A stretch of 64,000 bases of DNA. It comes from an uncultured Roseobacter sp. GTDB taxonomy: Bacteria > Pseudomonadota > Alphaproteobacteria > Rhodobacterales > Rhodobacteraceae. The stretch spans positions 377,501 to 441,500 of the forward strand of contig CANKZM010000004.1 in the NCBI GenBank assembly GCA_947488305.1, read 5' to 3'. The notes under the pieces were generated by a model. The model was not told the DNA's origin, did no database searches, and saw only the letters and a list, made by a program, of their open reading frames with translations. A program made the position numbers and the translations under genes. Positions within the stretch are counted from its first letter, which is position 1, and every line of letters starts with the position of its first letter. Shown one piece after another: positions 800 to 62,809 of this stretch.

Positions 800-1975
800 A
801 TGGACATTCACGAATATCAGGCCAAGGAGATACTTGCTCGGTTCGGCGTCCCCGTTCCGCGTGGTGGATTGGCGTGGTCGCCCGAACAGGCGGCTTTCCG
901 TGCACGTGAGATTGGGCCCGCACCCTATGTAGTCAAAGCCCAGATACACTCCGGAGGGCGTGGCGAGGCTGGGGGTGTCAAACTTTGCACAACGGACAGC
1001 GACGTCCGTGCCTATGCCGAAACCCTTTTTGGAAAGACACTTTGCACAAAGCAAACCGGTGAACGTGGCAAAGACATTTATCGCCTGTGGGTCGAAGAAG
1101 CCTCTGACATCGCCCGAGAGCTTTATCTGGGCTTTGTGCTGGACCGGAAATCTGAGCGCATCATGATTGTTGCCTCACAGGAAGGCGGCACGGAGATCGA
1201 GGACCTTGCGGAAGAGCAGCCAGATACGCTGATTCGGATGGTTATCGACCCCGCCGTGGGGCTAGTTGGCTATCAGGCACGGGAGCTGGCGTTTGAGTTG
1301 GGGCTGGAAGGGCCGCAGGTCAATCAAATGGTCGCGGTCTTACAGGCCTGCTATCGCGCCTACAGTGATCTCGACGCCACCATGGTTGAGATCAATCCGC
1401 TGGTGGTGACGGGGGCCGGTGATCTGATTGCGCTGGATGCCAAGATGTCATTTGACACCAACGCGCTCTACCGGCGCCCGGAAGTTGCCGCGCTGCGCGA
1501 TCCCAGTCAGGAAGACCCGCGCGAAGCCATGGCCGCTGATAACGGTCTGGCTTATGTCGGACTTGATGGTGACATCGGCTGCATCATCAATGGTGCGGGC
1601 CTCGCGATGGCCACGATGGATATGTTGAAGCTCTCGGGCGGGGAGCCGGCAAACTTTCTCGACATTGGCGGCGGTGCCAGCCCCGAACGCGTGTGCCAGG
1701 CGTTCCGAACTGTTCTGTCGGACGCAAACGTCAACGTCATCCTCGTGAACATTTTTGCCGGCATCAACCGGTGCGATTGGATCGCGAAAGGGGTGGTGCA
1801 GGCCTATAAGGAAGTTGGTCTGACCATACCGGTTGTCGTCCGCCTTGCGGGCACAAATGTGGAAGCCGGACAGGATATTATCCGCACGTCCGATTTGCCG
1901 ATCACCGTAGCCGACACGCTCGCTGAAGCTGCGGAAGCAGCCGTCGCACACCGTAGCCAGCCCAAAGCTGCTTGA
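800..1975 (+). CDS. mtkA: Malate--CoA ligase subunit beta (succinyl-CoA synthetase beta-like)
   Basis: [25 protein letters not shown]-grasp start; family motifs [20 protein letters not shown]; adjacent to malyl-CoA lyase. Confidence 0.85.
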
Positions 1976-1990
1976 GAAAGGACCAGATCA

Positions 1991-2887
1991 ATGGCCATTT
2001 TGATTGATGAGACCACAAAAGTAATCGTGCAGGGAATTTCCGGCCGTATTGGACAGTTTCATACGCAGGAAATGATCGAGGCAGGCACCAAGGTTGTGGG
2101 CGGGGTTACCCCTAACAAAGGCGGGACAACGGTACTGAACCGCCCGGTGTTCAATACGGTGCGCGAAGCTGTCAAAGCGACGGGCGCGGAAGCAAGCCTT
2201 TTGTTTGTGCCGCCGCCGCATGCTGCCGATGCGATGATGGAAGCTGCGGACGCCGGGATCAAAACGGCTGTATGCGTCACGGATGGTATTCCGGCGCAGG
2301 ACATGATGCGGGTGAAACGCTTCCTGCGGCGGTATCCGAAGGAACGGAAAATGCGCCTGATAGGGCCGAACTGCGCGGGAATTATCAGTCCCGGAAAAGG
2401 CTTTATGGGGATCATGCCGCCGCACATCTACGAAGCCGGGCGCGTCGGCATTGTCGGTCGCTCCGGCACGCTGGGTTATGAGGCCGCAAGCCAGATGCAG
2501 GCGTTGGGGATCGGTGTTTCGACCTCCGTGGGTATCGGAGGCGATCCGGTGAACGGATCGTCTTTCCGTGATATTCTTGAACTCTTCGAAGCGGACCCCG
2601 AGACAGATGCGGTGATGATGATCGGTGAGATTGGCGGCCCGCAAGAGGCCGAGGCAGCTGCATATGTGCGCGAGCACATGTCGAAGCCTGTTGTGGCCTA
2701 TGTCGCTGGACTCTCCGCGCCAAAGGGCCGTCAGATGGGTCATGCGGGCGCGATCATTTCTGCCTTTGGTGAAAGCGCGCAGGAAAAGGTAGAGCTTCTG
2801 TCGTCGGTTGGGATCACAGTTGCACCGAACCCGTCCACCATGGGTGCAACGATGGCAAGTGTTCTGGGGCACAAAGCGGCGGCCTGA
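1991..2887 (+). CDS. mtkB: Malate--CoA ligase subunit alpha (succinyl-CoA synthetase alpha-like)
   Basis: MAILIDETTKVIVQGISGRIGQFHTQEMIEAGTKVVGGVTPNKGG; active-site His region GHAGAI; follows mtkA by about 15 nt. Confidence 0.85.
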   Translation: MAILIDETTKVIVQGISGRIGQFHTQEMIEAGTKVVGGVTPNKGGTTVLNRPVFNTVREAVKATGAEASLLFVPPPHAADAMMEAADAGIKTAVCVTDGIPAQDMMRVKRFLRRYPKERKMRLIGPNCAGIISPGKGFMGIMPPHIYEAGRVGIVGRSGTLGYEAASQMQALGIGVSTSVGIGGDPVNGSSFRDILELFEADPETDAVMMIGEIGGPQEAEAAAYVREHMSKPVVAYVAGLSAPKGRQMGHAGAIISAFGESAQEKVELLSSVGITVAPNPSTMGATMASVLGHKAAA

Positions 2888-10329: not shown

Positions 10330-11327
10330 TTGCCACACTCCTCTTTCAGTCGGACACTTATTTCGGGTGTTGGTGCAGGCAGGTTGTGGGCGACGATTTC
10401 TTTTACCGGGTGCAAGGCAGGATGTTCCAGATTGGTTTGGATGTGACCCCAGACGCGCGGAATGAGGTCGACATAATGGGCTTTGCCATTGCGCATACAA
10501 AGCCGGGAGAAGCCACCCAGGATGCGCATGTTCCGTTGGAAGCCAAAGACGGCGTAGGCCGCGTTGAATGCCGCCGGGTCAAGTTGCCTGTCGGCAATAA
10601 AGGCGGATTTCACTTCCTCTTCCACTGATTTCAACACGTCCCGTCGGGCATCTTGCAGAATTGAAACGAGGTCGTAGGCGCAATGGCCAAGCATGGCATC
10701 CTGAAAATCCAGCAGGCCAACCTGCGCCACGCCAACTCGATCCGGGAGCCAAAGCAGGTTTTCTGCATGAAAATCGCGCTGGATCAGGATATTCAGGTCA
10801 TTATCCAAAGGGGAGATGACAGAATGGAAAGCGTCTGAAAACTCCTGCCGCGCGCTGGTGTTCTCACGTCCTGTCGCGCCAAAAAGATACCAGTCATACG
10901 CAAGAGCGGCGAGCGGCACTGTTGTTTCCGACGCGTAGGGAATGAGATCGGGCGCTTCGGCTTCGTGCAAGACCGAAAGCACTTTTGCTGCAGCATGATA
11001 AAGCGATGCCTCCCGCGTAGGGTCCTCTGCCATCTCGCGGGCGAACAGCCGATCTCCCAAGTCCTCGATCAACAGAAATCCGGCATCGTAGTCGTGGTGT
11101 AAGATCTCGGGCGCACTGAGCCCAAGGCTCTTTAGATAGCGGGCGACCCGCACGAATGGACGGGTATCCTCTCCCTTGTCGGGCGGCGCGTCCATCAGGA
11201 CAGCGGTGGCGCCATCCGGTGCCGTGAGTCTTTCATATCGACGATTGGACGCATCGCCCGCAAGCGGGTTGATTTTTGCGGATTGCCAGCCAGCGTCGGA
11301 AATAAAAGCCTGAGTATCGCGCATCAT
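10314..11327 (-). CDS. amgK: Aminoglycoside phosphotransferase-family kinase, AmgK-like (anomeric MurNAc/GlcNAc kinase)
   Basis: GDASNRRYERL, QRDFHAENLLWL and LLDFQDAMLGHCAYDL kinase motifs; overlaps MurU-like and TsaE genes. Confidence 0.75.
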   Translation of the reverse strand: MMRDTQAFISDAGWQSAKINPLAGDASNRRYERLTAPDGATAVLMDAPPDKGEDTRPFVRVARYLKSLGLSAPEILHHDYDAGFLLIEDLGDRLFAREMAEDPTREASLYHAAAKVLSVLHEAEAPDLIPYASETTVPLAALAYDWYLFGATGRENTSARQEFSDAFHSVISPLDNDLNILIQRDFHAENLLWLPDRVGVAQVGLLDFQDAMLGHCAYDLVSILQDARRDVLKSVEEEVKSAFIADRQLDPAAFNAAYAVFGFQRNMRILGGFSRLCMRNGKAHYVDLIPRVWGHIQTNLEHPALHPVKEIVAHNLPAPTPEISVRLKEECGKWAGR

Positions 11328-11800
11328 GCCTGCCCCCATTTTTTCAGCCGGTCGGACCAGATCGGATCGGCCCAGGTCGCAGTGAGGCGGCGCGATTCCT
11401 CTGCCTCACCGTCTTCGAACGACAGCGAGAGCGCAGAGTTCGGTTTTAGGGGCCCAAGGCGGTCTGGCCATTCAATCAAGCAAATGGCCTGTTCAAAGGC
11501 GTCCGTCAGGCCAAGCTCTTCGATCTCATGGACTGATCCAACGCGATAGAGATCCGCATGCCATAAAGGACCATTTTTGGTGTCATACGTCTGGACCAGG
11601 GTGAATGTAGGCGAGGGGACATCTTCAGGCACAATCAGGATGGACTGGATCAAATGCCGTGCAAAATGGGTTTTGCCAGCGCCAACCGACCCAGACAGCA
11701 GGAGGATATCGCCGGTGGCTAAACGCGGGCCCAACGCCTTTGCCGCCTGCGCAGTGCAGTCGGGAGAAGGGAATTCGAAAGTGGCGCGAAACGTCGGCAT
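11324..11800 (-). CDS. tsaE: tRNA threonylcarbamoyladenosine biosynthesis ATPase TsaE
   Basis: LSGSVGAGKTHFARHLI Walker A, PSPTFTLVQTY, LWHADLYRV. Confidence 0.93.
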   Translation of the reverse strand: MPTFRATFEFPSPDCTAQAAKALGPRLATGDILLLSGSVGAGKTHFARHLIQSILIVPEDVPSPTFTLVQTYDTKNGPLWHADLYRVGSVHEIEELGLTDAFEQAICLIEWPDRLGPLKPNSALSLSFEDGEAEESRRLTATWADPIWSDRLKKWGQA

Positions 11801-11850: not shown

Positions 11851-13398
11851 TCAGATGTGTTTGATCTTTGTGCTGGGTACCTTGGACGTGATTGACGGTA
11901 TTTCCGTTTTCACGAACCGTACGATAGTGGCTCCGGTCGCAATTCTGGACACAATGCAGCGCAAGTCATCCCCATCGCTGAGTTGCGTGCTCATTTCCCA
12001 CGACGTTTTTTCACCAAAATCCAGCACAAATTCGTTCAGGCTGGCCCAATCGGCCCCGTCCACACACAACCGCTGCCAATCATTTACACAATCTGCGATC
12101 GTCACATCCGCAAAACTGTTGTCCGGGTCGGCACCCCACATTTCCCGATAAGCGAGGTTGCAAAAGGTCAAAACACCGGTTGACGAGAACACAACGAGGG
12201 CCTCCTCGAAAGTGTCCATCAGGGATTGCCCTAATTCCAATTCGGCACGGAAATTACGTGTCAGTGAGATTTCGGCCGTGATGTCCTCGATCAGAAAGGC
12301 AATTGCTCCATCTGGGTGAGGACGCCCGTTCACGCGATACGTCTGCCCGGTTTCCAGCGTCCATGTCTCCTGATACCGACCGTCTGTTGCAGCGGCGATG
12401 ACGTCGGTAATCTGTTGACGCCAGGACTGATAATTCTTGGGTTCCGGCATCCGGCGGTTTTCGCGGATGCGGTCAAAGAAGGACATGAGCGTCGGCCGCC
12501 CACTCAAAAAGTCAGCTGGTAAATCGGTCAAATCTATCAACGCGGGATTAAACAATGCCAGCTGCCCGTTTCGATCAAAAATCGCGAGGCCGATCGAAAG
12601 CTGCGCAAAAGTCTTGGCCAGCGTTTGAACAAAATTGCGCTGGGCAACTTCTGATTTGACGAGCGCGTTCACATCCACGGCGTGGAAGACGGTAATATCT
12701 CCGACGCTGACGGCGCTCACGTCATACCAGTCCGATTGCCCGCTGCCCGCTGTTTGTGTCGATACCCGTTGACGCTCATTCTTTTCTTCAAAATCCGGCA
12801 GCGACGCAAAAACGGGCGTGGTGTCGTCCGGTTCGGTCTTTCGCAAGCGTTTGTAGAGCGCGCGATAGGCAGAGTTGTGCCAGGTCACGAGCCCTTCTGA
12901 GTCCACCTGCCAAATGGCGTGAGAGGTTGTGTCACTGGCGCGCTTGAGGTTGTCGACTTCGCGTTGCAGAATTTTTATGCGCTCTGACTGAACCGTATTC
13001 TGTTCGCCTTCTTCGAGCATATTGATGCGTGTGAAAGCGCCATCCCGGGTCAACGAAATGGTTGCTGCGTCTTCGGCGTCTCTTGCAGTGATTGTTGTCT
13101 CGCCAGGCGTTGCATCGCCGGGTACTTCGGGCAGGTTGGGGAATCGGTTCATCAACCTTTCCCGGAGCCCCGTCCAATCATCGCGGCCCGGCATCAGTTG
13201 ATACAATCGCGCCGCGGCATCCGAGACGTGATGGAGGTTTTCACCCTCGAACAGGAACGATACCGCACGGTCCGGATCGGTCGTGGTCTGCCCGGTTTCC
13301 GTCATTGTTTGCTTTTGGTTTTTCAATATCCATGCGACGGCAACAACGGTGCTCGCTGTTGCCGCGCCCGCGATGGCGGCGACATCAAAAAAATCCAT
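11851..13398 (-). CDS. divL: PAS-domain protein without a recognisable kinase domain; candidate Rhodobacterales DivL
   Basis: 515 aa, N-terminal TM, several PAS-like segments (IWQVDSEGLVTWHNSAYRALY; GLAIFDRNGQLALFNPALIDLT; ALVVFSSTGVLTFCNLAYREMWG); ends without HATPase motifs; between tsaE and regB. Confidence 0.6.
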   Translation of the reverse strand: MDFFDVAAIAGAATASTVVAVAWILKNQKQTMTETGQTTTDPDRAVSFLFEGENLHHVSDAAARLYQLMPGRDDWTGLRERLMNRFPNLPEVPGDATPGETTITARDAEDAATISLTRDGAFTRINMLEEGEQNTVQSERIKILQREVDNLKRASDTTSHAIWQVDSEGLVTWHNSAYRALYKRLRKTEPDDTTPVFASLPDFEEKNERQRVSTQTAGSGQSDWYDVSAVSVGDITVFHAVDVNALVKSEVAQRNFVQTLAKTFAQLSIGLAIFDRNGQLALFNPALIDLTDLPADFLSGRPTLMSFFDRIRENRRMPEPKNYQSWRQQITDVIAAATDGRYQETWTLETGQTYRVNGRPHPDGAIAFLIEDITAEISLTRNFRAELELGQSLMDTFEEALVVFSSTGVLTFCNLAYREMWGADPDNSFADVTIADCVNDWQRLCVDGADWASLNEFVLDFGEKTSWEMSTQLSDGDDLRCIVSRIATGATIVRFVKTEIPSITSKVPSTKIKHI

Positions 13399-13450
13399 CT
13401 CAAAGGAAACCTTATACCGTTACGACTGCGAAACACTGCTGCAATCACGG

Positions 13451-13466
13451 TTAACGCATGGTTAAC
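13451..13466. promoter_or_regulatory. Candidate CtrA box upstream of the PAS/DivL-like gene
   Basis: TTAA-CGCATGG-TTAAC matches TTAA-N7-TTAAC exactly; about 53 nt upstream of the minus-strand start at 13398. Confidence 0.6.
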
Positions 13467-13487: not shown

Positions 13488-14906
13488 TTAGACTGGAATA
13501 CGTTTGTTTTCGCCTTTTGGGACGGGTGTATTGCCAAATACGGCGTCTACTTCGCGCCGCACCCATTTCACTTCAACCACGGCGCCAATCCCATTTGTAG
13601 AGTCTGATATTGGCTTGCTCGTGTCCTCGCGACCGTTGGCAAAGCTCAGCTCGGCACCGGAACGTTCCAAGAGCGTTTTTGCAATGAACAGCCCCAATCC
13701 CATACCTTCATATCCCGGTCGCCGTCCCCGTTCAGAGGAAGACTTGCGGCGCTTCATGAACGGATCGCCAATTCGCCCGATCAGATGCGGCGGAAAGCCG
13801 CGACCGTCATCCATGATCCGCAGCGAGATTGTCTCTTCATCCCAGCTAGCTTCGACCCAAACGTCTTGGCGTGCGAAATCAACCGCGTTTTGAACCAGGT
13901 TGCGAACCCCGTGGATGATCTCTGGCTTGCGCAGGATTGAGGGTTGGAGAATTTCCGGCCCAACCAGCTGGAAGGTGATCTCCTTGCCCCGATCCATATG
14001 CGGCTCGGCAGCTTCTTCCAACACTGCGCGCAGGGGTGCTTGACGCAGATGCAAATCGTCCTTCCCGGCCCGCCCCATGTCGCGCAGGATGTCGCGGCAC
14101 CGGTCAGCCTGTTCGCGGATCAACGCCGCATCCTCCTGCAGATCCCGGCGGTCAGCAAGCTCTTCGAAGAGCTCACCACTGGCCAGTTTGATGGTTGCAA
14201 GTGGTGTTCCCAACTCATGCGCCGCCGCAGCGACAACACCGCCGAGATCGGTCAGCTTCTGCTCGCGGGCGAGCGCCATCTGTGTCGCTGAAAGCGCATC
14301 GGACATGGAATTGATCTCTGACGTTACACGAACGGAATAGGCACTAATAAAGACGATTGCGATGATCAGGGCGATCCAATTTCCGAAAACAAACAGATCC
14401 GGGATCGCCAGAATGAACCCCTGTTCGGTACGCAGCGGATAGTGGAACTGGGTCAACAAAGACACCAGCAAGATCGCGGTACCCCCCAAGACAACAGTAG
14501 ACCGTAACGTCAGCACGGCGGCTGAGATCGTCACGGGCCCAAGCATCAGCAAAGCGAATGGATTGTGGAGACCTCCGGTCAGATAGAGCAGAAAGCTCAG
14601 TTGCAGCAGGTCGAACAATACTGTCAGCATGTTCTGCGTTTCCGTCAGCCTTTTGTTTTCCGGAAACACAAAAATTGCCACGAGATTGGCAATCACGGAG
14701 GCACCGATGGCCAGATAACACAGCCCCAATTCCAGCCTCAGACCATAGAATTGCTGTGCGACTGTAATCGCGATCAATTGGCCAGCGATAGCGAACCAAC
14801 GGAGCAGGATCAGCGAGCGCAACCGTATCCAATTTGCCCGTGTATCGCCGGAAGCTGGTCGCAGATTCAGGTCCGCCAAAAGATCACCGCTTGTTGAGTT
14901 GCACAC
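13488..14906 (-). CDS. regB: Redox sensor histidine kinase RegB/PrrB/ActS
   Basis: N-terminal multi-TM region, HELGTPLATIKLASGEL H-box, GMGLGLFIAKTLLERSGA G-box; divergent from senC and close to regA; likely GTG start 14906. Confidence 0.9.
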   Translation of the reverse strand: MCNSTSGDLLADLNLRPASGDTRANWIRLRSLILLRWFAIAGQLIAITVAQQFYGLRLELGLCYLAIGASVIANLVAIFVFPENKRLTETQNMLTVLFDLLQLSFLLYLTGGLHNPFALLMLGPVTISAAVLTLRSTVVLGGTAILLVSLLTQFHYPLRTEQGFILAIPDLFVFGNWIALIIAIVFISAYSVRVTSEINSMSDALSATQMALAREQKLTDLGGVVAAAAHELGTPLATIKLASGELFEELADRRDLQEDAALIREQADRCRDILRDMGRAGKDDLHLRQAPLRAVLEEAAEPHMDRGKEITFQLVGPEILQPSILRKPEIIHGVRNLVQNAVDFARQDVWVEASWDEETISLRIMDDGRGFPPHLIGRIGDPFMKRRKSSSERGRRPGYEGMGLGLFIAKTLLERSGAELSFANGREDTSKPISDSTNGIGAVVEVKWVRREVDAVFGNTPVPKGENKRIPV

Positions 14907-14970
14907 TTCGTAAAAGACGTTAGGACTGCACGTGGGCAGGATCAAGGTAAGCATTAAGGAGTACGGCAGA

Positions 14971-15594
14971 ATGAATCCCCGTTTGATTGCTTTGTTTTCG
15001 GTCGCAGCGCTCATCGGGCTGATGGGTGGTATCTGGTTCTGGACACAGTCTTCGAAAGGCGATGATCAGTTTGCCCAATGCCGGGCGAGCGCCGTAGCCG
15101 GGGGTGCCGGCGCTCTTGGCGGGCCTTTCGAGCTGGTCAATGCCGACGGAGAGACCGTGACGGACGCGGATGTCATCACCGAGCCATCAATTCTGTACTT
15201 TGGATACACTTTCTGTCCGGATGTCTGTCCTCTGGATGTGAACCGCAACGCTCTGGCAGTTGATGTCCTCGCCGACAGGGGGATGTCCGTCACCCCGGTG
15301 TTTATCTCGATTGATCCAAAACGTGACACGCCAGAGGTTGTCGGCGATTTCTCTGCAAACATGCATGAGCGCATGGTCGGGCTGACGGGGTCCCCTGAAC
15401 AGGTGAAAGCGGCGAGCCAAGCGTATCGGACCTACTATCGTGCGCAAGAGGGGGATGATGACTATTACCTGGTCGATCATTCGACCTTCAGCTATCTGGT
15501 GTTGCCTGAGCACGGGTTTGTCGAATTCTTCCGCCGGGAAATCTCGCCAGAACAAATGGCGGATACTGTGGCCTGCTTCGTCGAAAACGCTTGA
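14971..15594 (+). CDS. senC: SCO1/SenC copper chaperone family protein
   Basis: GYTFCPDVCPLDVNR CxxxC motif, VFISIDPKRDTPE, DHSTFSYLV. Confidence 0.93.
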   Translation: MNPRLIALFSVAALIGLMGGIWFWTQSSKGDDQFAQCRASAVAGGAGALGGPFELVNADGETVTDADVITEPSILYFGYTFCPDVCPLDVNRNALAVDVLADRGMSVTPVFISIDPKRDTPEVVGDFSANMHERMVGLTGSPEQVKAASQAYRTYYRAQEGDDDYYLVDHSTFSYLVLPEHGFVEFFRREISPEQMADTVACFVENA

Positions 15595-32060: not shown

Positions 32061-33173
32061 CTACCCGACCTTGAAGCCCCAGAAATCGGTCCGGTCCGCC
32101 ATGAAATACCCCGCATGCGCGCGCATGATCCCTTGTAGTTCAACAGTATCGCCAGCGTTGAGGACGGCCATGGTCTGAAGGTTTAGTGTTGTCCTCTCGG
32201 ATACATGTGACGCGGTGTTCTCCGCCTGCGACCCGGGTATGACCGTGGCGCCATTGACGACCAGCTGCGCGCCCATTCGAGCGGCTGTGCTGCTGTCTTG
32301 TTTGAAGGTCAGAAGCGCGCCCAGAAAATAGGTTCCATCAACCGGTGCGGTGAATTCATTGGTCCCGGCGTCAAAGCTGCCCTGATCGTTGTATGCAAGA
32401 TCGTTGATCGCGATTCGGGTCCAGGTATCCACGGCACCGAAGTTGTCGAAATTTGTTGTGCCCTTGAAGCGGGGCAGGCGCGGTTGATCGACCACACCTG
32501 TGGCGCTGTTCACGATCAGTCCATCAAGGAAGTTTGCGCCATCGGCAGATGTGGCGAGGCGCAAATCATCTGATCCAAAAATGCCAAACAGCCCGCGTGT
32601 CTGAAAGTCCCGCTGGAAAACGAAGCCAGTATCGTCGCCTGTTGTTTCCTTGTTCAGGGTGACCATCATGTCGCCGGTCCCACCATCTGCGGCATAAAGG
32701 GCGGTCCAGAGGGCAGCGTTGATCTTGGCCGAAAACGGTGTGCCAGGGAGAGTTGTCATGCCCAGGCCAAAAGTCTCGATCTCTTCCAGTTCGGGGCTTT
32801 CCAGATCAACCCATTCCGCCCCGTCATAGACAACCATGGCATCGCGGTTGATGACATAGGCCCGCCAGCCTGCGCGGGGTACGAAAAAGCGCCAAGTGTC
32901 GGTCTCGAACAGGGCAACTTCGCTGTCATGGTCTGCCCAGTCACCTGTTGCGCTGGCATCCACAATATAGCGTGTGCCTTCCAAGGGTGCGGCGGGCGGT
33001 GTCGTGAGATCGTCGGCCGCAACGCCAAGCTGCGTCACAACGTCAAGGATACGCAGGGCTTCGTTATGGGTGACGTGTTTTTGTGCCTGACTGGGCTGGA
33101 TGAAAGGCAAAGACAAGCTGCTGGAGATATCGGCCATTGGAATTCCCACGTGAAAGGTTTGATCGCGGGACAT
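32061..33173 (-). CDS. DUF2793 domain protein with C1q/TNF-like C-terminal segment
   Basis: SSSLSLPFIQPSQAQKHVTHNEALRILDVV; GWRAYVINRDAMVVYDGAEW; C-term FTAPVDGTYFLGALLTFKQ...GDTVELQGIMRAHAGYFMADRTDFWGFKVG; likely start MADISSS (about 33137). Confidence 0.8.
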   Translation of the reverse strand: MSRDQTFHVGIPMADISSSLSLPFIQPSQAQKHVTHNEALRILDVVTQLGVAADDLTTPPAAPLEGTRYIVDASATGDWADHDSEVALFETDTWRFFVPRAGWRAYVINRDAMVVYDGAEWVDLESPELEEIETFGLGMTTLPGTPFSAKINAALWTALYAADGGTGDMMVTLNKETTGDDTGFVFQRDFQTRGLFGIFGSDDLRLATSADGANFLDGLIVNSATGVVDQPRLPRFKGTTNFDNFGAVDTWTRIAINDLAYNDQGSFDAGTNEFTAPVDGTYFLGALLTFKQDSSTAARMGAQLVVNGATVIPGSQAENTASHVSERTTLNLQTMAVLNAGDTVELQGIMRAHAGYFMADRTDFWGFKVG

Positions 33174-33262
33174 CCTTCAGCAAAAGGTTTGCGACCCTCT
33201 TAGAGGGCCGCGCGTGAGAGTAAGCAGCGGTTAACCAATCACTCTCACACTGGAAACGTTTA

Positions 33263-51251: not shown

Positions 51252-53336
51252 ATGGAAAACCTATCCGTAAAGGCTCTATTCAACCCGACGATCCTGCTGG
51301 CCGTTGCTCTCATGGCTGTCATTGTAATGATGATCCTGCCGATGCCAGCATGGGTACTGGACATTGGCTTGGCAGCATCATTTGCGTTAGCGATCCTGAT
51401 TTTCACAATAACCCTGTTCATTGAGAAACCACTCGACTTTTCTGCTTTCCCAACAATTCTGCTCGCTTCTCTAATGCTGCGTTTGTCACTGAACGTATCT
51501 TCAACAAAACTAATCATTGGTCAGGGTCACACAGGAACTGACGCGGCAGGTGACGTAATTGAAGGTTTCGCTCAGTTCATAATGGGCGGGAGCGTCTTTC
51601 TGGGTTTGGTGGTCTTTTGCGTTCTATTGATCGTGAATTTCATGGTGATCACCAAAGGTGCCGCAAGAATGGCCGAAGTGGGTGCCCGGTTTGCTTTGGA
51701 CGGCATGCCCGGCAAGCAATTGGCCATCGACAGCGACATGTCGGCTGGTGCTATTTCACATCTGGAAGCGAAAGAGCGGCGAGAGCGGGAACAACAGGAA
51801 ACCACGTTCTTTGGCTCGCTTGATGGCGCATCCAAATTCGTGAAAGGCGATGCGATCGCAGGGTTGCTAATTACTCTGTTAAACTTGGTGGCCGGCTTGA
51901 TCATGGGCATAGCTATTCACGGCATGCCGATCGGACAGGCGTTTGAAACTTATGCAATTCTGACTGTTGGTGACGGGCTTGTGTCGCAGATACCAGCCGT
52001 CATCATTTCGATTGCTTCGGCGCTATTGCTTGCCCGGGGAGGGGCCCAAGGCGCGACCGATCTTGCAGTTTTCGGACAACTTGGCAAACATCCCGCAGCC
52101 CTCGCTACGGTTGCAGTGCTGATGGCACTGTTCGCGTTGTTTCCGGGATTGCCCTTTGCGCCCTTTATTTTCGGAAGTGCTGCGCTGGGGGGCACTGCAT
52201 TCTACCTGTACAAAAAAGCAAAACTACCGCCATTGATCGACCCGAGCGAGACTGAGGAGGAAGTTCTACCCAAAGAAAAGGCGCTCGGTGACATCTTGGA
52301 GATCGACGACATTCACGTGGAATTCGCGCCCGATCTCGTGAACATGGTATTGGATCCCGGCACCGGTCTTGATGCCCGTATCTCCAACATGCGAACTCAT
52401 GTGGCTTCTGTATATGGTTTGATTTTGCCAGAGATACGATTGACCGATAACGCGGCTCTGCCTGCCGGAACGTATCTTCTGAAAATTCAAGGCGTCGAAC
52501 AGGCCCGCGCCGCATTGAACCCTGACCAGATTCTGGCCCTGATTCCTGAAAATCCGATGAGCCTACCAAGCGGAACGGATACAAGTGAGCCCGTTTATGG
52601 TGCACCAGCACGTTGGATCAATACTAGGGATCAGGAACAGGCGGCCTTGGACGGTCTCACCCTAGTGACCCCAGCGGAAATCCTCGCAACTCATTTGCTG
52701 GAAACTGTAAAGCGCAACTTCAGCCGGCTCCTGACGCTCAAGGCTTTGCGACGATTGCTGAACGAAATGACCAATATCTCAAATCCGGCACGGGCCGAAG
52801 CCAATCGAAAACTTCTGGATGAGATGATCCCCGACAAGGTGCCGATTGATTCTCTTCACGCGGTACTTAGGCTCCTGCTTGACGAGCAAGTTTCCATCCG
52901 CAACCTTCCGCTCATCCTGGAAGCCACTGCGGAGGCGCGGGCGTTTAATCCGCAGCCTGAAGCTATTTGTGAACATGTCCGGCAACGATTGGGTTTCCAA
53001 CTGGTCGCAGAGATGCGCCGGGATGACGGTACCTTGCCATTGATTCAGCTTGCGCCTGAATGGGAGGACACTTTCAATACGTATCAAGTCGAAGCGGATC
53101 GCGGGCTTGATATCGCTTTGCCACCCGATCTCTTCAATCACCTTGCTGACAGTGTTTCTGAAAAGCTGCAGGACGCAAATCAGAACGGCATTAACGCGGC
53201 ACTTGTCACCAATACGCGCAGACGACGGTTTTTGCGAACAGTGATGCGGGCGAAGGGCATTAACAATCCTGTATTGTCGTTTGAGGAGATCGGACTTGAT
53301 GCAAGACCTTCACTGGTAGGGGTTGTTGCCGCGTGA
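51252..53336 (+). CDS. flhA: Flagellar export protein FlhA
   Basis: FSAFPTILLASLMLRLSLNVSSTKLIIGQGHTG; ARFALDGMPGKQLAIDSDMSAG. Confidence 0.97.
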   Translation: MENLSVKALFNPTILLAVALMAVIVMMILPMPAWVLDIGLAASFALAILIFTITLFIEKPLDFSAFPTILLASLMLRLSLNVSSTKLIIGQGHTGTDAAGDVIEGFAQFIMGGSVFLGLVVFCVLLIVNFMVITKGAARMAEVGARFALDGMPGKQLAIDSDMSAGAISHLEAKERREREQQETTFFGSLDGASKFVKGDAIAGLLITLLNLVAGLIMGIAIHGMPIGQAFETYAILTVGDGLVSQIPAVIISIASALLLARGGAQGATDLAVFGQLGKHPAALATVAVLMALFALFPGLPFAPFIFGSAALGGTAFYLYKKAKLPPLIDPSETEEEVLPKEKALGDILEIDDIHVEFAPDLVNMVLDPGTGLDARISNMRTHVASVYGLILPEIRLTDNAALPAGTYLLKIQGVEQARAALNPDQILALIPENPMSLPSGTDTSEPVYGAPARWINTRDQEQAALDGLTLVTPAEILATHLLETVKRNFSRLLTLKALRRLLNEMTNISNPARAEANRKLLDEMIPDKVPIDSLHAVLRLLLDEQVSIRNLPLILEATAEARAFNPQPEAICEHVRQRLGFQLVAEMRRDDGTLPLIQLAPEWEDTFNTYQVEADRGLDIALPPDLFNHLADSVSEKLQDANQNGINAALVTNTRRRRFLRTVMRAKGINNPVLSFEEIGLDARPSLVGVVAA

Positions 53337-54103
53337 GTTCATTGGGCGACCTCATACCTTTTGTAAACCTGGCGTTATGGCAGGGTTTCATCGTCTTCTT
53401 ACGCGTAGCAGCGATCACGTCGCTTTTGCCCGCCTTTGGTGAGCAGTCCATCCCGACCCGCGTCAAACTTGTTGTGGCGCTGGCGTTCACAGCGATTGTT
53501 GCCCCCGCGGTGCCCATCTCCATACCAGATCCCGTTTTTGACAGCATGGTACTACTGGTATTCACCGAGATCCTATCAGGTCTGGCAATGGGGATCGGGT
53601 TGCGGCTCTTTATACTTGCTTTGCATACTGCAGGTTCAATCGCGGCGCAATCAACGTCTCTTTCGCAGGTGCTTGGCGGTGCGTCGGTCGATCCGTTGCC
53701 GGCAATGGGCTACATCTTGATTGTCGCCGGGTTGGCCTTGGCAGCCATGGCGGGACTACATGTTAAAGCAGCGCAACTTATTATAATATCGTACGAATTC
53801 CTGCCTGCCGGCCGGTTTGTTCAAGCCACTCAAGTTACGGACTGGGGTGTGCGGCAAGTGGCGCAGGCGTTTTCGCTGGCGTTTACGCTTGCAGCACCAT
53901 TCGTGATCTTGTCCGTCCTATATAATTTTGCACTTGGCGCAATCAACAGAGCGATGCCGCAATTGATGGTGGCCTTTGTTGGTGCGCCGGTGATTACGCT
54001 CGGTGGTCTTGCGTTGTTGTTCGTGGCTGCACCTTTCATGTTGACGGTATGGCTGGAAGCCATGGACACATTTATGGCCGATCCCTTTGGTGTCGCGCGA
54101 TGA
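53333..54103 (+). CDS. fliR: Flagellar export protein FliR
   Basis: Multi-TM, LVVALAFTAIVAP, SLSQVLGGASVDPLPAMG; 4-nt overlap with flhA. Confidence 0.93.
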   Translation: MSSLGDLIPFVNLALWQGFIVFLRVAAITSLLPAFGEQSIPTRVKLVVALAFTAIVAPAVPISIPDPVFDSMVLLVFTEILSGLAMGIGLRLFILALHTAGSIAAQSTSLSQVLGGASVDPLPAMGYILIVAGLALAAMAGLHVKAAQLIIISYEFLPAGRFVQATQVTDWGVRQVAQAFSLAFTLAAPFVILSVLYNFALGAINRAMPQLMVAFVGAPVITLGGLALLFVAAPFMLTVWLEAMDTFMADPFGVAR

Positions 54104-55188
54104 GTGGGCAGGACGACTCGTCGGACAAGTCATATGAGGCGACGCCTCAAAAGCTTCTCGAAGCGCGGAAAAAGGGAGAAATTGCGCGTTCAAACGAACT
54201 GCTTACTGCAGCCTCATATACAGGCCTGTTCGTTGCGTTCACCGTTGCCGGATATTCTGGCCTGACTTACCTGGGCTCCAGTATGAGCGTCATCATCGGT
54301 CAATCGGCTCAAATCGCGCCACTCTTCTTTGGAGGCGCTGCGGCAACGCCGGCCCAGGGAATTCTGGAAGCAGTCGCTTGGTCAACCTTACCGATCTTTA
54401 CCTTTCCGGCGATCGCTGTGCTCTTGGCGTTGTTTGCAACCCGCGGGATCGTCTTTGCACCCGTCAAGATACAGCCCAAGCTTAACAAGATATCAGTGAT
54501 AGCGAATGCCAAAAACAAATACGGCCGAAATGGGTTATTTCAGTTTCTTCTAAGTTTTTTGAAGCTGATCATTTACTCTTTATGCCTTGTCTTCTTTTTG
54601 TATGCGCGCCTCGAAGAGATGGTTGCCGCGCTCCAAACCAATCCTCAAACCACTGTTGTTCTGCTTGCGGAAATCTGTCTGGACTTCCTGATCGTGGTCG
54701 TGATCGTTTCCGCTGTTATCGGCGGCATTGACGCCGTTTGGCAGCATTTTGAGCATCAGAGAAAAAACATGATGTCTCGAAAAGAGATAATGGACGAGAC
54801 CAAAAACTCCGAGGGTGACCCCTACATGAAACAAGAGCGGCGTCAGCGTGCCCAAGCACTTGCAAACACGCAAATGGCCGCTGAAGTTGCTACCGCTGAC
54901 GTAATTATCGTGAATCCGACGCATTATTCCGTTGCGCTCAAGTGGGATCGTAGGCCTGGTCAGGCGCCAGAATGTGTGGCGAAAGGCGTTGACGAAGTGG
55001 CGTTGCGTATCCGAGAAATCGCTGCAGAGAATGATATCCCCATCCGTAGTGATCCGCCGACGGCCAGAGCGTTGCACGCGACAACTGAAATCGGCGATCA
55101 GATCTCGCCTGAACACTACAAGGCCGTCGCGGCCGCCATTCGATTTGCCGAAGCCATACGGCAGAAGGCGAAAGGGCGTGGGTTTTGA
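54100..55188 (+). CDS. flhB: Flagellar export switch protein FlhB
   Basis: EATPQKLLEARKKGEIARSNEL; autocleavage NPTH in VIIVNPTHYSVALKWD; ATGA overlap with fliR. Confidence 0.97.
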   Translation: MSGQDDSSDKSYEATPQKLLEARKKGEIARSNELLTAASYTGLFVAFTVAGYSGLTYLGSSMSVIIGQSAQIAPLFFGGAAATPAQGILEAVAWSTLPIFTFPAIAVLLALFATRGIVFAPVKIQPKLNKISVIANAKNKYGRNGLFQFLLSFLKLIIYSLCLVFFLYARLEEMVAALQTNPQTTVVLLAEICLDFLIVVVIVSAVIGGIDAVWQHFEHQRKNMMSRKEIMDETKNSEGDPYMKQERRQRAQALANTQMAAEVATADVIIVNPTHYSVALKWDRRPGQAPECVAKGVDEVALRIREIAAENDIPIRSDPPTARALHATTEIGDQISPEHYKAVAAAIRFAEAIRQKAKGRGF

Positions 55189-55625
55189 AAACCAAGACGC
55201 TCAAAGAACTTGAGCAGGTGCTCGATCTCAGGTTTCGGAGAAAGCAGATGGGGTATGCGAAGATCATTTCGCAAGAATCGCGTGTGCGCGAACAACTTCG
55301 CAAGCTGGACGATCAAGCCAAGGACGCAGAGCGATCCCAGGACCATAATCTTCAGGCGATTGGTGCCGATGTAATCTGGAAGTCGTGGCTGGAGCGCACA
55401 AAACGCACGCTCAACATGGAGCTGGCACAGATCATGGTCCAGAAGGAAGCTCTGAGGGCCGGCGTCAAACGGGAATATGGAAAATTGCTGGTTGGCAGAG
55501 AGATGCTGGAGGATCAGGTTTTGGAACAATCAACCTCACGGAAAAAGCAGATGCTCACCGATGCAATTGAAAGCCACGTTAATCAGGCATGCTGGGGTTG
55601 TCGGCCTAAAGAGCCACGAAACTGA
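55185..55625 (+). CDS. Coiled-coil protein of the flagellar cluster (FliJ-like candidate)
   Basis: 146 aa, highly charged helical; TTG start overlapping flhB stop. Confidence 0.6.
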   Translation: MKTKTLKELEQVLDLRFRRKQMGYAKIISQESRVREQLRKLDDQAKDAERSQDHNLQAIGADVIWKSWLERTKRTLNMELAQIMVQKEALRAGVKREYGKLLVGREMLEDQVLEQSTSRKKQMLTDAIESHVNQACWGCRPKEPRN

Positions 55626-55648
55626 AAGTCGACTGGTGGTCAGTGAGC

Positions 55649-56149
55649 CTAGTAGTCTTGCCTGGCGATTTCGAAGATCAAAACGTCGCTAATCAGATCA
55701 GAGCCAAAGTTCTCCCGAGCGGCGTTTGTGAGGTTCAGGCGAACAGAATCAAGATTGTCGGTGTTGAGAAATGCGCCTCTGAAGCCGCCGATCGCGGCAT
55801 GATCGAACAATACCCTCAAAAAGACGTCACGGATTTTAGGTTCCAGATCGTAGACTTCCTGACTTTGACCAACAGGCGCCTCGACGCTCAGCGTCATCAC
55901 CACCATCGATGAGACACGATCTTCTTCAACAATCGGTACGACAAACTGGTTGCTCAGTTTTAGGTATTCCTTGCCGTCAATCGGGAGGCCATCTTCCTTT
56001 TTTTCCTCCTTTTTTTCAGCGCTTTCCTTTTCCTCAACCTTTTCTTCGGTCAACTCTTTTGGAGCAGGCTCAGGCCGGAGAAACACTCCGGCCCCGACAC
56101 CTGCGCCCGTTCCAATTAAGAGCATTATTATTGGCAAGATCTTTTTCAT
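55649..56149 (-). CDS. FliL family protein (copy 2)
   Basis: MKKILPIIMLLIGTGAGVGAGVFL TM; KEYLKLSNQFVVPIVEEDRVSSMVVMTLSVEAP...LEPKIRDVFLRVLFDHAA. Confidence 0.8.
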   Translation of the reverse strand: MKKILPIIMLLIGTGAGVGAGVFLRPEPAPKELTEEKVEEKESAEKKEEKKEDGLPIDGKEYLKLSNQFVVPIVEEDRVSSMVVMTLSVEAPVGQSQEVYDLEPKIRDVFLRVLFDHAAIGGFRGAFLNTDNLDSVRLNLTNAARENFGSDLISDVLIFEIARQDY

Positions 56150-56158
56150 ATTGGTGCC

Positions 56159-56890
56159 TCAATAGGGGAGAATGACGTCCAGGATCTGTTGGCCAATGCG
56201 AGGTTGCTGTACATCCGTGATCTGGCCACGACCCCCATATGAGACGCGCGCGGTGGCGATCTTGTCGTAGGTGATCTCGTTTTGGCGCGAGATGTCTTCC
56301 GGTCTGACATATCCGGACACCAACAGCTCACGCATTTCAAAATTGACGCGCAGTTCCTGACTGCCGGAAATGGACAGAACACCGTTTGGGAGCACATCCA
56401 CCACGGTTGCTGCGACCCTTAGCGTCAGCTTTTCGTTTCGCTTAACAGACCCATCGCCCGAGGACGCGCTGGACGAGTTGATATTCACTGCATTTCCGAG
56501 TGTTGCACCCTCCGGCAAACGCTCATTAACGCGTTGCGGCAGGCCGAATAGCTCGGGCACGCCAAGGCTCTCGGATGCTGATCGAGAACGATCTGAGGCG
56601 TTTGAAATTTCTGCCTCTTCGTCAATTTCGATGACAACAGTGAGAATATCACCTTGTTGGATGGCGCGCCGGTCACCCAGCAAAGACTGGCGGGCGCCGG
56701 ACCAAAGCGAGGCTGCCTCCGTTGGTGTTTCGGGATCAACCCGAAGCGGTAACCCTGGGGAGAGCATTGCACTATGCTCTTTAGTCGCCGTCGCGGAGGT
56801 GAAAGTCGGTGGTTTGCCAATGTGGTCAAAGCGTGCGCAACCGGAAAGGCCGACCGCAACAAAGAGTATTCCAAGAGCAGGATTCTTCAT
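56159..56890 (-). CDS. flgH: Flagellar L-ring protein FlgH
   Basis: Lipobox LSGCARFDHIG; LWSGARQSLLGDRRAIQQGDILTVVIEIDEEAEISNAS; GVLSISGSQELRVNFEMRELLVSGYVRPEDIS. Confidence 0.95.
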   Translation of the reverse strand: MKNPALGILFVAVGLSGCARFDHIGKPPTFTSATATKEHSAMLSPGLPLRVDPETPTEAASLWSGARQSLLGDRRAIQQGDILTVVIEIDEEAEISNASDRSRSASESLGVPELFGLPQRVNERLPEGATLGNAVNINSSSASSGDGSVKRNEKLTLRVAATVVDVLPNGVLSISGSQELRVNFEMRELLVSGYVRPEDISRQNEITYDKIATARVSYGGRGQITDVQQPRIGQQILDVILPY

Positions 56891-56899
56891 ATCATTTTC

Positions 56900-57322
56900 C
56901 TAGTTATAAACGCGGACAGAGCCGTCTTCCTGGACCTGACCAAACAAAGTCGCGCGAGAGTCCAGATTCATGATGCGGATTCGATCCCCGATGCCTCCGC
57001 GTTGCAGCGAGCGGCCTTCGGTCATGATGATCAGCCCGGAAGTTTCGTAGATCAGCGGCACGATTTGATTTCTATCCACCAAAGCGGGCGGGCCAACGTC
57101 ATCAAAGAGAATCGGCCTGCCGGCATAGAGCGTTGTCCTCGCCTCCTGACCAACGACATCCAACACACGCGTGAAGGCGTTCGGGTTCTGGACAGATTTC
57201 AACGTTACGTCTGTCTCAGAAATCGTGGCAGTGGCTCGGATGGTCCGCGTTGGAACAACAGAGTCTGCCCAGACGGAGGAGGCCATGACGCATAGTATGA
57301 TCAGACTAAAGAACTGTTTCAT
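56900..57322 (-). CDS. flgA: Flagellar P-ring assembly chaperone FlgA
   Basis: Signal peptide; GQEARTTLYAGRPILFDDVGPPALVDRNQIVPLIYETSGLIIMTEGRSLQRGGIGDRIRIMNLDSR. Confidence 0.93.
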   Translation of the reverse strand: MKQFFSLIILCVMASSVWADSVVPTRTIRATATISETDVTLKSVQNPNAFTRVLDVVGQEARTTLYAGRPILFDDVGPPALVDRNQIVPLIYETSGLIIMTEGRSLQRGGIGDRIRIMNLDSRATLFGQVQEDGSVRVYN

Positions 57323-58104
57323 CGGATCTGCGTCGTCGCGCCCATCATCTGGTCAGCAGCGGAAATTACCTTTGCATTCATCTCATAACCGCGCTGCGCT
57401 TCGATCAATTCGGTGATTTCGCGAACGGCGTCGACAGAACTGTCTTCAAGGTAGCCTTGGCGAACGGTGCCAAGCCCATCTTCGCCGGGGGTCGTCACCA
57501 ATGCCGCACCTGATGCCTCTGTTTCTGCAAAGAGATTGCCACCAAGAGCTTCAAGACCTTTTGGATTGGTAAAGCCAACGAGGTTGAATTGACCTAGCAA
57601 TTGCGCATCTGGCGTGTCTGAGAAATATGCAAAGACCTCGCCCGCGCCGTTGATGGAAATACTTCGGGCATCGTCCGGGATGACAATTTCCGGTTCCACC
57701 GGGAAGCCGTCCGAGGTCACGATCAACCCTTCTCCATCCCGTTTCAAACCACCATCGCGGGTGTAAGCGGAAAGGCCGCTGGGAAGCGTGATTTCGAGAT
57801 AGCCGTTGCCTTCGATCGCAATGTCGAGGTCGCCTCCTGTGGCGCTTAACGAACCTTGTTGCAGTTGCACCGAAACGGCGGACGGGCGGACACCCAAGCC
57901 CAACTGCACGCCTGTTGGCAAAACAGTCCCGTCGGTTGCGTTGATTGTGCCAGGCCTGCTTAATTGCTGGTAATGCAGGTCCGCGAACTCAGCGCGCCTG
58001 GCATTGTATCCAGTTGTGCTCATATTCGAGAGGTTGTTCGAGATGGTCTCCACACGCAGTTGCTGTGCGCTCATACCTGTGGCAGCGATTTTTAGGGCAC
58101 GCAT
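57319..58104 (-). CDS. flgG: Flagellar distal rod protein FlgG
   Basis: MRALKIAATGMSAQQLRVETISNNLSNMSTTGYNARRAEFADLHYQQ; C-term EITELIEAQRGYEMNAKVISAADQM. Confidence 0.97.
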   Translation of the reverse strand: MRALKIAATGMSAQQLRVETISNNLSNMSTTGYNARRAEFADLHYQQLSRPGTINATDGTVLPTGVQLGLGVRPSAVSVQLQQGSLSATGGDLDIAIEGNGYLEITLPSGLSAYTRDGGLKRDGEGLIVTSDGFPVEPEIVIPDDARSISINGAGEVFAYFSDTPDAQLLGQFNLVGFTNPKGLEALGGNLFAETEASGAALVTTPGEDGLGTVRQGYLEDSSVDAVREITELIEAQRGYEMNAKVISAADQMMGATTQIR

Positions 58105-58131
58105 GTCAAATTTCCTCGTTTTTACTAATTA

Positions 58132-58845
58132 CTATTGAGACAGGGCGCGCATGGCTTGCCGCACCCGTTCATCTTCTGCTTCCAGAAAGCTGGCGCCCAA
58201 TTCATATGCGCGCTGCACTTCGATCATTCGGGTCAGTTGCAACACAGGGTTCACATTTGAATTCTCGATGAACCGCTGCAAAACACGCGCCTGGTCTGCG
58301 GGTTCGTACCCGTCATCCGCGCGAAACATCACCCCATCTTCCCGTACGAGCTGCTGTGGATCTACCGGCTGAACAACACCCATTTGACCCACAGGATTTC
58401 CTTCGCTGGAAATTGTACCATCAGCCGACACAGCAATGTCAGAGGCGCCCGGTGGGATAAAAACCGGAGCACCACCCGGGTCAAGGACCTGAAACCCGTC
58501 AGGTGTTACAAGATCGCCGTCGGCATTTGGAGTAAAGGATCCAGCACGGGTAAGCCGTTCGCCCTGTGGTGTTTGAACAAGGAAAAAACCGTCGCCTTCA
58601 ATCGCAAAATCGAATTGCCCCCCTGTCTGCGTCAAAGCGCCTTGCGCAAATGAAGTCTTGCGCGCGTCCGCCTGACCCATCGACAGGCTTGCCGCATTGT
58701 CCACAGACTTCACATATTCGGAGAAGATCACGCCTTCCTGCCGAAACCCGGACGTTGCAGCGTTTGCGATATTGTTCGCGACAACCCGCATCTCACGCAT
58801 GAGACCAGATTGTCGTGTGATTGTCGTGTAACCGGCATTTTCCAT
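58132..58845 (-). CDS. flgF: Flagellar proximal rod protein FlgF
   Basis: YTTITRQSGLMREMRVVANNIANAATSGFRQEGVIFSEYV. Confidence 0.94.
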   Translation of the reverse strand: MENAGYTTITRQSGLMREMRVVANNIANAATSGFRQEGVIFSEYVKSVDNAASLSMGQADARKTSFAQGALTQTGGQFDFAIEGDGFFLVQTPQGERLTRAGSFTPNADGDLVTPDGFQVLDPGGAPVFIPPGASDIAVSADGTISSEGNPVGQMGVVQPVDPQQLVREDGVMFRADDGYEPADQARVLQRFIENSNVNPVLQLTRMIEVQRAYELGASFLEAEDERVRQAMRALSQ

Positions 58846-58847
58846 TG

Positions 58848-59117
58848 TTACCCTCCAATAATCAGCGGGATGATCTGGTCATGAAAAAAGGAGACCAGCG
58901 TTTGCGTCATGAAGCCCATCGACAGCCAGAAAACGAGCACGATGGCTGCTAGTTTTGGCACAAATGTCAGGGTCATTTCCTGAATGGAGGTCAGAGCCTG
59001 AACCAGACCAATCGAAACACCCGTCACCAAGGCGGCCGTCAGGATCGGAATGGAAATCAGTACTGCGATCCACAGCCCGTGCCTTAAGGTGTCAAAGAAA
59101 ACGATTTGGTCAGCCAT
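58848..59117 (-). CDS. fliQ: Flagellar export protein FliQ
   Basis: 89 aa, two TM, TGVSIGLVQALTSIQEMTLTFVPKLAAIVLV. Confidence 0.95.
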   Translation of the reverse strand: MADQIVFFDTLRHGLWIAVLISIPILTAALVTGVSIGLVQALTSIQEMTLTFVPKLAAIVLVFWLSMGFMTQTLVSFFHDQIIPLIIGG

Positions 59118-59118
59118 G

Positions 59119-59445
59119 TCAGACCGGCATCCGCAGGATTTCCTGGTAAGCCTCGACGACTTTATTTCGAACCGAGACGGCAGCCTCTACTGCCAGTTCG
59201 GTTTGTGCCAATGCCTGAACAAGTGCATGCGGATCTGCATCGCCGATCATCGCTGCTTTTGACGCTTTTTCGCTTTCCGCGAGTGTCGTCGCAAAGTCTT
59301 TGGCGACTTGCCCCAAAGATTCCGAAACCGACGTGAATTCTGGCTCAGGCTCTGTTGCGGGGCGCGCATGTTGATAGCTTTGGATCGCGGTTGACGTACG
59401 CGGATTGTTAAAGCTCTGAGCGGTGGAAACGGCTTTCATATCCAT
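59119..59445 (-). CDS. fliE: Flagellar hook-basal body protein FliE
   Basis: ALVQALAQTELAVEAAVSVRNKVVEAYQEILRMPV. Confidence 0.93.
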   Translation of the reverse strand: MDMKAVSTAQSFNNPRTSTAIQSYQHARPATEPEPEFTSVSESLGQVAKDFATTLAESEKASKAAMIGDADPHALVQALAQTELAVEAAVSVRNKVVEAYQEILRMPV

Positions 59446-59493
59446 TCTGGATCTCCTTTACTTGCGTTCAGCTTCGCCAAACGCTGGTACCTT

Positions 59494-59886
59494 CTACTTC
59501 TTCAGCAATTCCATCAGGCCGCTGGACATTTTTCTCGTTTGTTCAAAGACCTTGAGGTTTGCTTCGTAACTGCGCTGTGCTTCGCGGGCGTCACTAAGCT
59601 CAATCAAGAGATCGACATTGGACCCGTCGAAGTATCCATCAGTATCGGCCATCGGATGAGACGGATCGTACACGCGTTCGAGTGTCGATTGATCCAATCG
59701 AACTCTGCTGGTTTCAACGCCTGAAACGCCGCGCCCGGTATTGAAGTCGGTTTCAAACGACACCAGTTTTCGCCGGTATCCCGGGGTGTCCGCGTTTGAA
59801 ATGTTTTCGGCCAGATGCCGCAGACGTGTCGCCTGGGCTTTCAGGCCGCTGGTTGTCACGCTCAGGGATTTGGAAAACTCGCTCAT
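59494..59886 (-). CDS. flgC: Flagellar rod protein FlgC
   Basis: SLSVTTSGLKAQATRLRHLAENISNADTPGYRRK; DAREAQRSYEANLKVFEQTRKM. Confidence 0.95.
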   Translation of the reverse strand: MSEFSKSLSVTTSGLKAQATRLRHLAENISNADTPGYRRKLVSFETDFNTGRGVSGVETSRVRLDQSTLERVYDPSHPMADTDGYFDGSNVDLLIELSDAREAQRSYEANLKVFEQTRKMSSGLMELLKK

Positions 59887-59901
59887 TCAAAACTCCATCT
59901 T

Positions 59902-60300
59902 TTACGTGCGGCTCAGCGACGTGCGCAGAATGTTCATGGATGATTTGTAGATTGCCAGCGCGCGATCATGCTGGCGCTTGGCATCCAGTGACTTCAACAT
60001 CTCGTTCTCTAACGAGACGGTGTTTCCGTTGGGCGTGCCAACCCCGTTGGGGTCGATGATCGGTTCTGGCATCTGATCCGAAGCCGTGCCGTTCAGATGC
60101 GTTTGTCTTGTCGATTTCTGAGAATGCCAGCCAATGGAACTCGAATCATTCCTATAGGTGCTCGCAAAAGGAATAATGTCCCGTGCCTTGTACTCAGGCG
60201 TATCTGAGTTTGCCACATTCTGTGCTGTCACGGCTTGCTTTTGGCCAGCATGGACAGCCATCGCGTGTGACATCTTAAAGACTTCCAAATTTCCAAACAT
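59902..60300 (-). CDS. flgB: Flagellar rod protein FlgB
   Basis: MFGNLEVFKMSHAMAVHAGQKQAVTAQNVANSDTPEYKARDIIPF; ORF open to 60330. Confidence 0.93.
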   Translation of the reverse strand: MFGNLEVFKMSHAMAVHAGQKQAVTAQNVANSDTPEYKARDIIPFASTYRNDSSSIGWHSQKSTRQTHLNGTASDQMPEPIIDPNGVGTPNGNTVSLENEMLKSLDAKRQHDRALAIYKSSMNILRTSLSRT

Positions 60301-60381
60301 CCGGGATTCTCCCTCATGTGATTTCATCAAGGCTTAACTCTGATTCCTTTAGAAAGAGTGTGCAGAAACCGAAGGATTGAC

Positions 60382-61758: not shown

Positions 61759-61964
61759 AGAGCTTTTGCGCCGAGCGGGATAGTCGATTTGAAGGTTCCG
61801 GCCTACACCGTCGACGGAATTGTTGGTTTGCGTGAGATAGAATGACTTACGTCATAAAGGCTTTTGACCGACACCCAAAGAGGTTGCTCTCCTCCTCAGG
61901 GAATCGCCCCAGTAGCCCGATGCAGACGCAACGATCAGCCTGCACAAAAAATATGATTTGGTCT

Positions 61965-62369
61965 TCAGTGCGGACGAGCGGCTAGCAACCGGTCTTCTCG
62001 AGGGATGAGTGCACGAAGCGCTTTCAGGGCCCGATAGTGTTGCTGCTCCACAAGGCCTTTCGTTGCTTCGGCCAAAACATTTCTGCTGTCCGGGTCCGTA
62101 AAGACCTGGCTGAGCTCTTCGATTTGGCGAAGGAGGGGCAAGTGAGCGTCATCCGGGCTCTTATCCCCTGATAAAACCAGTTGCATGGCAAAACACGCTC
62201 TGCGGACTGGTGTTTTTGCGTCTTCAGGATGGATGGCGTCCCTCAGCCGAAGAATATTGGCATCCGGAGTCATTATTGCGAGCCTGCTGCGTCGATCACC
62301 GTTTTCGATGACAACCCCATTGATCAGTACACGTTCCTTCGGGCTTAGTTTTAGTACAAGGCCGCTCAT
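61965..62369 (-). CDS. flbT: Flagellar biosynthesis repressor FlbT
   Basis: LVLKLSPKERVLINGVVIENGDRRSRLAIMTPDANILRLRDAIHPEDA; downstream of flaF. Confidence 0.95.
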   Translation of the reverse strand: MSGLVLKLSPKERVLINGVVIENGDRRSRLAIMTPDANILRLRDAIHPEDAKTPVRRACFAMQLVLSGDKSPDDAHLPLLRQIEELSQVFTDPDSRNVLAEATKGLVEQQHYRALKALRALIPREDRLLAARPH

Positions 62370-62737
62370 TGACTGGATACCTCTTGTTTTAGACCCTTCA
62401 GGATTGCAGCATTTATTTCGAGCAATGGCACAGCATTTTCGCGCTTCTGCATTACTTTTGCAGAGTGTTGTCGCGTGAATTCAGAAAGATAAAGAATCCG
62501 CGCCTTAAGATCTTTTGGAAGCTGATTGTCAGGGTGGGCAACATCAGCCGCAAGCGTTGTCCACAGCTTGTTATTCTCGTGCAGTGCTTCCGCCAGTCCA
62601 GGAAAATCATCTGATTGCATCGCCCGCTTCATTCGGTGGGAAATTCTTGCAATGACTTCATATTCTGCGCTGCGGGGGGTCTTGATTGGCGCCTGAGTCG
62701 GCGCATATGCGCGTTGAGCCTGTGCGTATGCGTTCAC
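62366..62737 (-). CDS. flaF: Flagellar biosynthesis regulator FlaF
   Basis: MNAYAQAQRAYAPTQAPIKTPRSAEYEVIARISHRMKRA; HENNKLWTTLAADVAHPDNQLPKDLKARILYLSEFTRQHS; overlaps flbT. Confidence 0.95.
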   Translation of the reverse strand: MNAYAQAQRAYAPTQAPIKTPRSAEYEVIARISHRMKRAMQSDDFPGLAEALHENNKLWTTLAADVAHPDNQLPKDLKARILYLSEFTRQHSAKVMQKRENAVPLLEINAAILKGLKQEVSSQ

Positions 62738-62773
62738 GGTGCAACCTTTATAAACTTGAATACAACAACGGTA

Positions 62774-62801: not shown

Positions 62802-62809
62802 AGTTAGTA

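Follow-up and report, generated by a model that had tools for sequence, protein, structure and literature searches.

DivL of Caulobacter crescentus is a protein of 769 amino acids with an N-terminal membrane segment and PAS domains, which acts on the CckA-ChpT-CtrA relay and retains DHp and CA domains for sensing of phosphorylated DivK (DivK~P). Its hallmark is a tyrosine (Tyr550) at the phospho-acceptor position (PMC4211667). Brilli et al. (2010) reported DivL to be devoid of its kinase domain in those Rhodobacterales that do not possess DivJ-PleC-DivK, predicted that both cckA and divL are controlled by CtrA and remarked on the resulting feedback (PMC2877005). Vega-Baray et al. describe short DivL as a feature common in this order (PMC9430884). 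In Dinoroseobacter shibae, the divL promoter contains a CtrA site, and divL expression is lower in ctrA, cckA and chpT mutants (PMC4046655, 2014); in this organism, ctrA and cckA are inferred to be under CtrA control and chpT is not (PMC7232146). In Rhodobacter capsulatus, the kinase activity of CckA is reported to be enhanced by DivL (PMC9143464, citing earlier work). Short DivL and its predicted control by CtrA are thus already published, and the prediction of 2010 is backed by the D. shibae expression data.

Our present results describe a divL locus of this kind. In the window, that is, the whole analysed stretch of 64,000 nucleotides, divL occupies positions 11851-13398 of the minus strand; it starts with ATG and encodes 515 amino acids. 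The gene for the redox-sensing histidine kinase RegB (13488-15014, minus strand; NCBIfam NF045988, E=2.5e-231) is located directly upstream in the same direction, just as the preliminary description had stated for Rhodobacter. As regB precedes divL on the same strand, the 89-nt gap between them represents the upstream region of divL. On the other side, tsaE (11324-11800, minus strand; TIGR00150 and Pfam TsaE) follows 50 nt 3' of divL, and the genes divL, tsaE, amgK, murU and addB all run in one direction with short gaps.

The gap between regB and divL contains a CtrA box with the core GTTAAC-N5-GTTAAC (13450-13466, minus strand). The exact TTAA-N7-TTAAC noticed there in the preliminary description, TTAACGCATGGTTAAC at 13451-13466, was recovered by motif scan, and its sequence on the divL strand is GTTAACCATGCGTTAACC. 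Because the box is nearly palindromic, it matches exactly on both strands, and with one count per strand it is the single exact site of the whole window. It begins 22 nt past the regB stop codon and lies 51 nt ahead of the divL ATG. Judged by the presence of this exact motif in its promoter region, divL belongs to the predicted CtrA regulon. A consensus scan revealed no sigma-70-type promoter at the box, and no terminator was found in the regB-divL gap.

The protein begins with a hydrophobic helix, the predicted membrane anchor (residues about 4-25, positions 13324-13389; helix 3-33 in the AlphaFold2 model), followed in the model by four PAS-like folds connected by long helices. The first fold (residues 46-129, 13012-13263) is degenerate, being apparent from the order of strands and helices and undetected by Pfam, while the second (residues 161-242, 12673-12918) is accompanied by a weak match to the sensor region of the NCBIfam CckA model (E=0.005, under cut-off). 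The third (residues 269-372, 12283-12594) is the best-conserved portion of the protein in the family alignment and corresponds to the Pfam PAS_7 match at 265-377 (E=2.5e-17). The fourth (residues 400-498, 11905-12201), seen also in the alignment with long DivL and matched by PAS_8 at 391-443, is the final domain before the stop codon. All four folds are encoded on the minus strand. The mean pLDDT of the model is 78.6, and the pTM of only 0.35 makes its domain arrangement unreliable. HisKA and HATPase domains were absent from the protein in a Pfam scan that detected both in the neighbouring RegB, so by Pfam the protein does not have the domain pair of a histidine kinase; PAS domains without this pair, as found by Pfam and AlphaFold2 alike, constitute the architecture of short DivL. 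The predicted N-terminal membrane segment, the PAS segments and the lack of kinase motifs noted in the preliminary description were in this way borne out.

A divL homologue is present in 269 of 298 genomes of the family. When a profile built from 18 family members was run over the class, genomes outside the family mostly yielded one strong match each, to proteins mostly 800-950 amino acids in length (E 1e-48 to 1e-62, down to 5e-62). The PAS region of these long homologues aligns with much of the window protein, and all ten tested contain HisKA and HATPase_c. At the position of the phospho-acceptor histidine, 20 of 22 long homologues have tyrosine in the motif SY[EQ]LR (SYELR, SYQLR), one has phenylalanine and the remaining one gave no match to the simple pattern; two open frames initially taken as long DivL, L229 and L233, lay on the wrong strand and were excluded from this count. 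According to the alignment, the pseudokinase of long DivL is preceded by a PAS domain, and the window protein terminates at the final strand of this domain. The gene tsaE is found 3' of long-form divL as well, in several genomes.

Gene order leads to the same assignment. The order regB-divL-tsaE is common to the window and a genome named R. capsulatus SP108 (L146), whose box is also exact, CTTAACGGCACATTAACC. Genome G035, which we take to be D. shibae, again has this order and an exact box. R. capsulatus DivL (rcc00042) shares with the window protein the short, PAS-only form; it belongs, however, to another genus, and identity is moderate (39% between the window protein and L065, the homologue carrying the R. 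capsulatus primer sites). The published R. capsulatus divL qPCR primers (PMC9143464) fall within the same ORF family in relatives, and in one relative genome the forward primer matches exactly and the reverse one with one mismatch. DivL of D. shibae (Dshi_3433) is an ortholog in the same gene order with a CtrA site in its promoter (PMC4046655), but its box overlaps the regB stop codon instead of starting 22 nt after it. Compared with C. crescentus DivL, the window protein is without both DHp and CA. Taken together, R. capsulatus synteny, divL primer sites and profile homology to long DivL with a tyrosine pseudokinase uphold the earlier assignment, and homology supports the view that the window gene is the short divL of Rhodobacterales.

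Conservation of the box was followed at regB-divL junctions sampled from about 100 genomes of the family, nearly all of different genera (about one per genus), a sample skewed toward genomes with higher-scoring divL matches. Directly upstream of divL, regB is present in 101 of 102 sampled loci. The sole locus where regB was not found upstream (L046, G005:C3:127436-128857) nonetheless has an exact box before divL. In the region from -60 to +260 relative to the regB stop codon (320 nt), 85 of 101 genomes have the exact box and 97 have a box with no more than one mismatch, and dinucleotide-shuffled versions of the same regions contain an exact box in 0.04%. The N7 spacer of the 85 exact sites is almost unconstrained, and the flanks are kept (a C following TTAAC, then A/T, T, T). 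Of 78 named genomes in a separate set, which is rich in Rhodobacter and Paracoccus, 50 had an exact box and 76 had one with at most one mismatch. By sequence comparison, then, the box upstream of divL is conserved in position across most of the family, and the box did not prove to be missing from close relatives, the outcome named in advance as fatal to the proposal. Long-form divL of other families has an exact box upstream in only 2 of 22 cases, a contrast that is indicative because gene starts were called mechanically and a single search window was used.

The source genome also encodes the rest of the relay. CtrA is present (NF045991, E=5.4e-129, passing the cut-off) and is 72% identical to a C. 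crescentus CtrA receiver sequence. ChpT passes the cut-off of PF10090, and a CckA homologue matches the Brucella model with E=7.8e-157, under the strict cut-off of that model. An exact CtrA box lies 49 nt upstream of cckA (G000:C1:791503-791519) and a box with one mismatch roughly 70 nt before ctrA (region of G000:C1:696206), with no CtrA box found at chpT. The same pattern, with inferred CtrA control of cckA and ctrA and not of chpT, has been described for D. shibae (PMC7232146). A close DivK was not found in the genome, as the top hit for C. crescentus DivK is only 33% identical; other single-domain receivers exist besides it. By this best match the genome shares the absence of DivK typical for the short-DivL group.

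Several other readings of the locus have to be weighed against this evidence. The exact CtrA word is no commoner in the genome than its reversed control pattern (27 and 33 strand-wise matches, respectively), and for this reason the word alone is weak evidence. A chance match is already refuted by the fixed position of the box, kept in 85 of 101 genomes, and we regard its probability as negligible. The difference is illustrated by the gap between rpsT and dnaA, where an exact box overlapped by a one-mismatch box lies about 520 nt before dnaA (G000:C4:487327-487354; L272:1528-1555) and the exact box is absent from all 27 other genera compared. This site was dropped as a second cell-cycle target for want of conservation; through it, CtrA may act on dnaA or the origin region in this lineage alone. 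That the ORF encodes an unrelated PAS protein is suggested by nothing beyond the lack of a curated family name and the generic character of its Pfam and NCBIfam matches. A search of PDB sequences with the family profile returned no matches, and Foldseek of the model retrieved only generic multi-PAS proteins (PpsR, FixL, DosP), which is uninformative on function. Given the strong profile matches to tyrosine-pseudokinase proteins in other families, the tsaE neighbourhood common to several long forms and a locus identical in layout to that of R. capsulatus, this explanation is highly improbable.

The remaining two alternatives concern the use of the box. It might serve mainly the downstream genes tsaE, amgK, murU and addB, or repress readthrough from regB, with divL merely the first gene passed; the co-directional arrangement with short gaps and the lack of a detected terminator between regB and divL would fit. 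The box nevertheless stands directly before divL in most genomes of the family, and in D. shibae expression of divL itself falls in ctrA, cckA and chpT mutants (PMC4046655), which leaves this reading unlikely. Another regulator with similar half-sites, for example a Crp/Fnr-type factor, could use the site as well, for the TTAAC half-site is common to the Dnr/Fnr site and the CtrA motif, and FnrL binding has been suggested beside R. capsulatus divL (PMC7232146). Such use is very unlikely to be the main explanation, as the full CtrA motif is conserved together with its flanks and the same genome has further boxes, exact or nearly so, ahead of cckA and ctrA.

We therefore propose, on the basis of the 85 genomes in which the box is kept, CtrA feedback on divL as the best reading of the locus. 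Gene identity, loss of the kinase domain, synteny, conservation of the box and the presence of the relay genes with their boxes come from the present analysis; the proposed circuit adds to them two regulatory steps. Phosphorylated CtrA (CtrA~P) would bind the box 51 nt upstream of divL and activate the gene, DivL would by means of its PAS domains shift CckA toward the kinase state, and CckA and then ChpT would phosphorylate CtrA, thereby closing a positive loop in addition to the control that CtrA would exert over cckA and its own gene. We hold it very probable that short DivL promotes CckA kinase activity through PAS and that CtrA~P activates divL in this manner. Binding of CtrA at divL of the window, and activation instead of repression, are both inferred. 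The step from CtrA to divL is most likely correct in the light of box conservation and the D. shibae expression data (PMC4046655), and so is the step from DivL to CckA in the light of the R. capsulatus reports (PMC9143464). Short DivL has retained the sensor half of the DivL pseudo-histidine kinase, whereas the DHp/CA half, the reader of DivK~P in Caulobacter, has been lost. Since the DHp that reads DivK~P is missing, any signal into short DivL should come via its PAS domains. Readthrough from regB could be an alternative source of divL expression. In R. capsulatus, one dataset from an sqrR deletion shows an increased divL transcript, and FnrL has been suggested to bind near divL (PMC9143464, PMC7232146); in view of these reports, the main input into divL may be other than CtrA.

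Other parts of the window touch on processes associated with CtrA. Flagellar genes, mentioned in the preliminary description, were found at 51252-63985 and encode FlhA, FliR and FlhB family proteins, a rod protein of the FlgF/G type, an export ATPase and flagellin. No exact CtrA box is located near them, nor anywhere in the window besides the one at divL. The accompanying remark on gene transfer agents (GTA) finds a counterpart here only through a gene encoding a DUF2793 protein of 370 amino acids whose end is C1q-like (32061-33173, minus strand); DUF2793 is the tail-fibre family of GTA (PMC10883770). The start of this gene is preceded at 47 nt by a CtrA box with one mismatch (33220-33235), such sites being common by chance in the window. 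In locus L019, a gene for a LuxR-type autoinducer-binding regulator (ORF 1625-2407, plus strand) is preceded at about 110 nt by an exact CtrA box (L019:1501-1516). CtrA boxes have been reported at quorum-sensing genes of some Roseobacters (PMC4046655).

The locus is an ordinary, well-supported case of short DivL with a CtrA box, both described earlier for the group. What is new is the breadth over which the box is conserved, about 100 genomes compared with far fewer behind the original prediction, together with the contrast to the long form. The frequency of the exact box at short and long divL (85/101 versus 2/22) supports the published link of CtrA control with loss of the DivK input, and the contrast makes the order of these events testable on a tree. 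A further and rather doubtful idea is that, after loss of DivK and of the pseudokinase, control of DivL passed from DivK~P to transcription by CtrA and to signals sensed by PAS domains, with the fixed pairing of regB and divL letting redox conditions into the CtrA relay. If this were true, the positive DivL loop would act on flagella and gene transfer agents as a switch gated by redox state.
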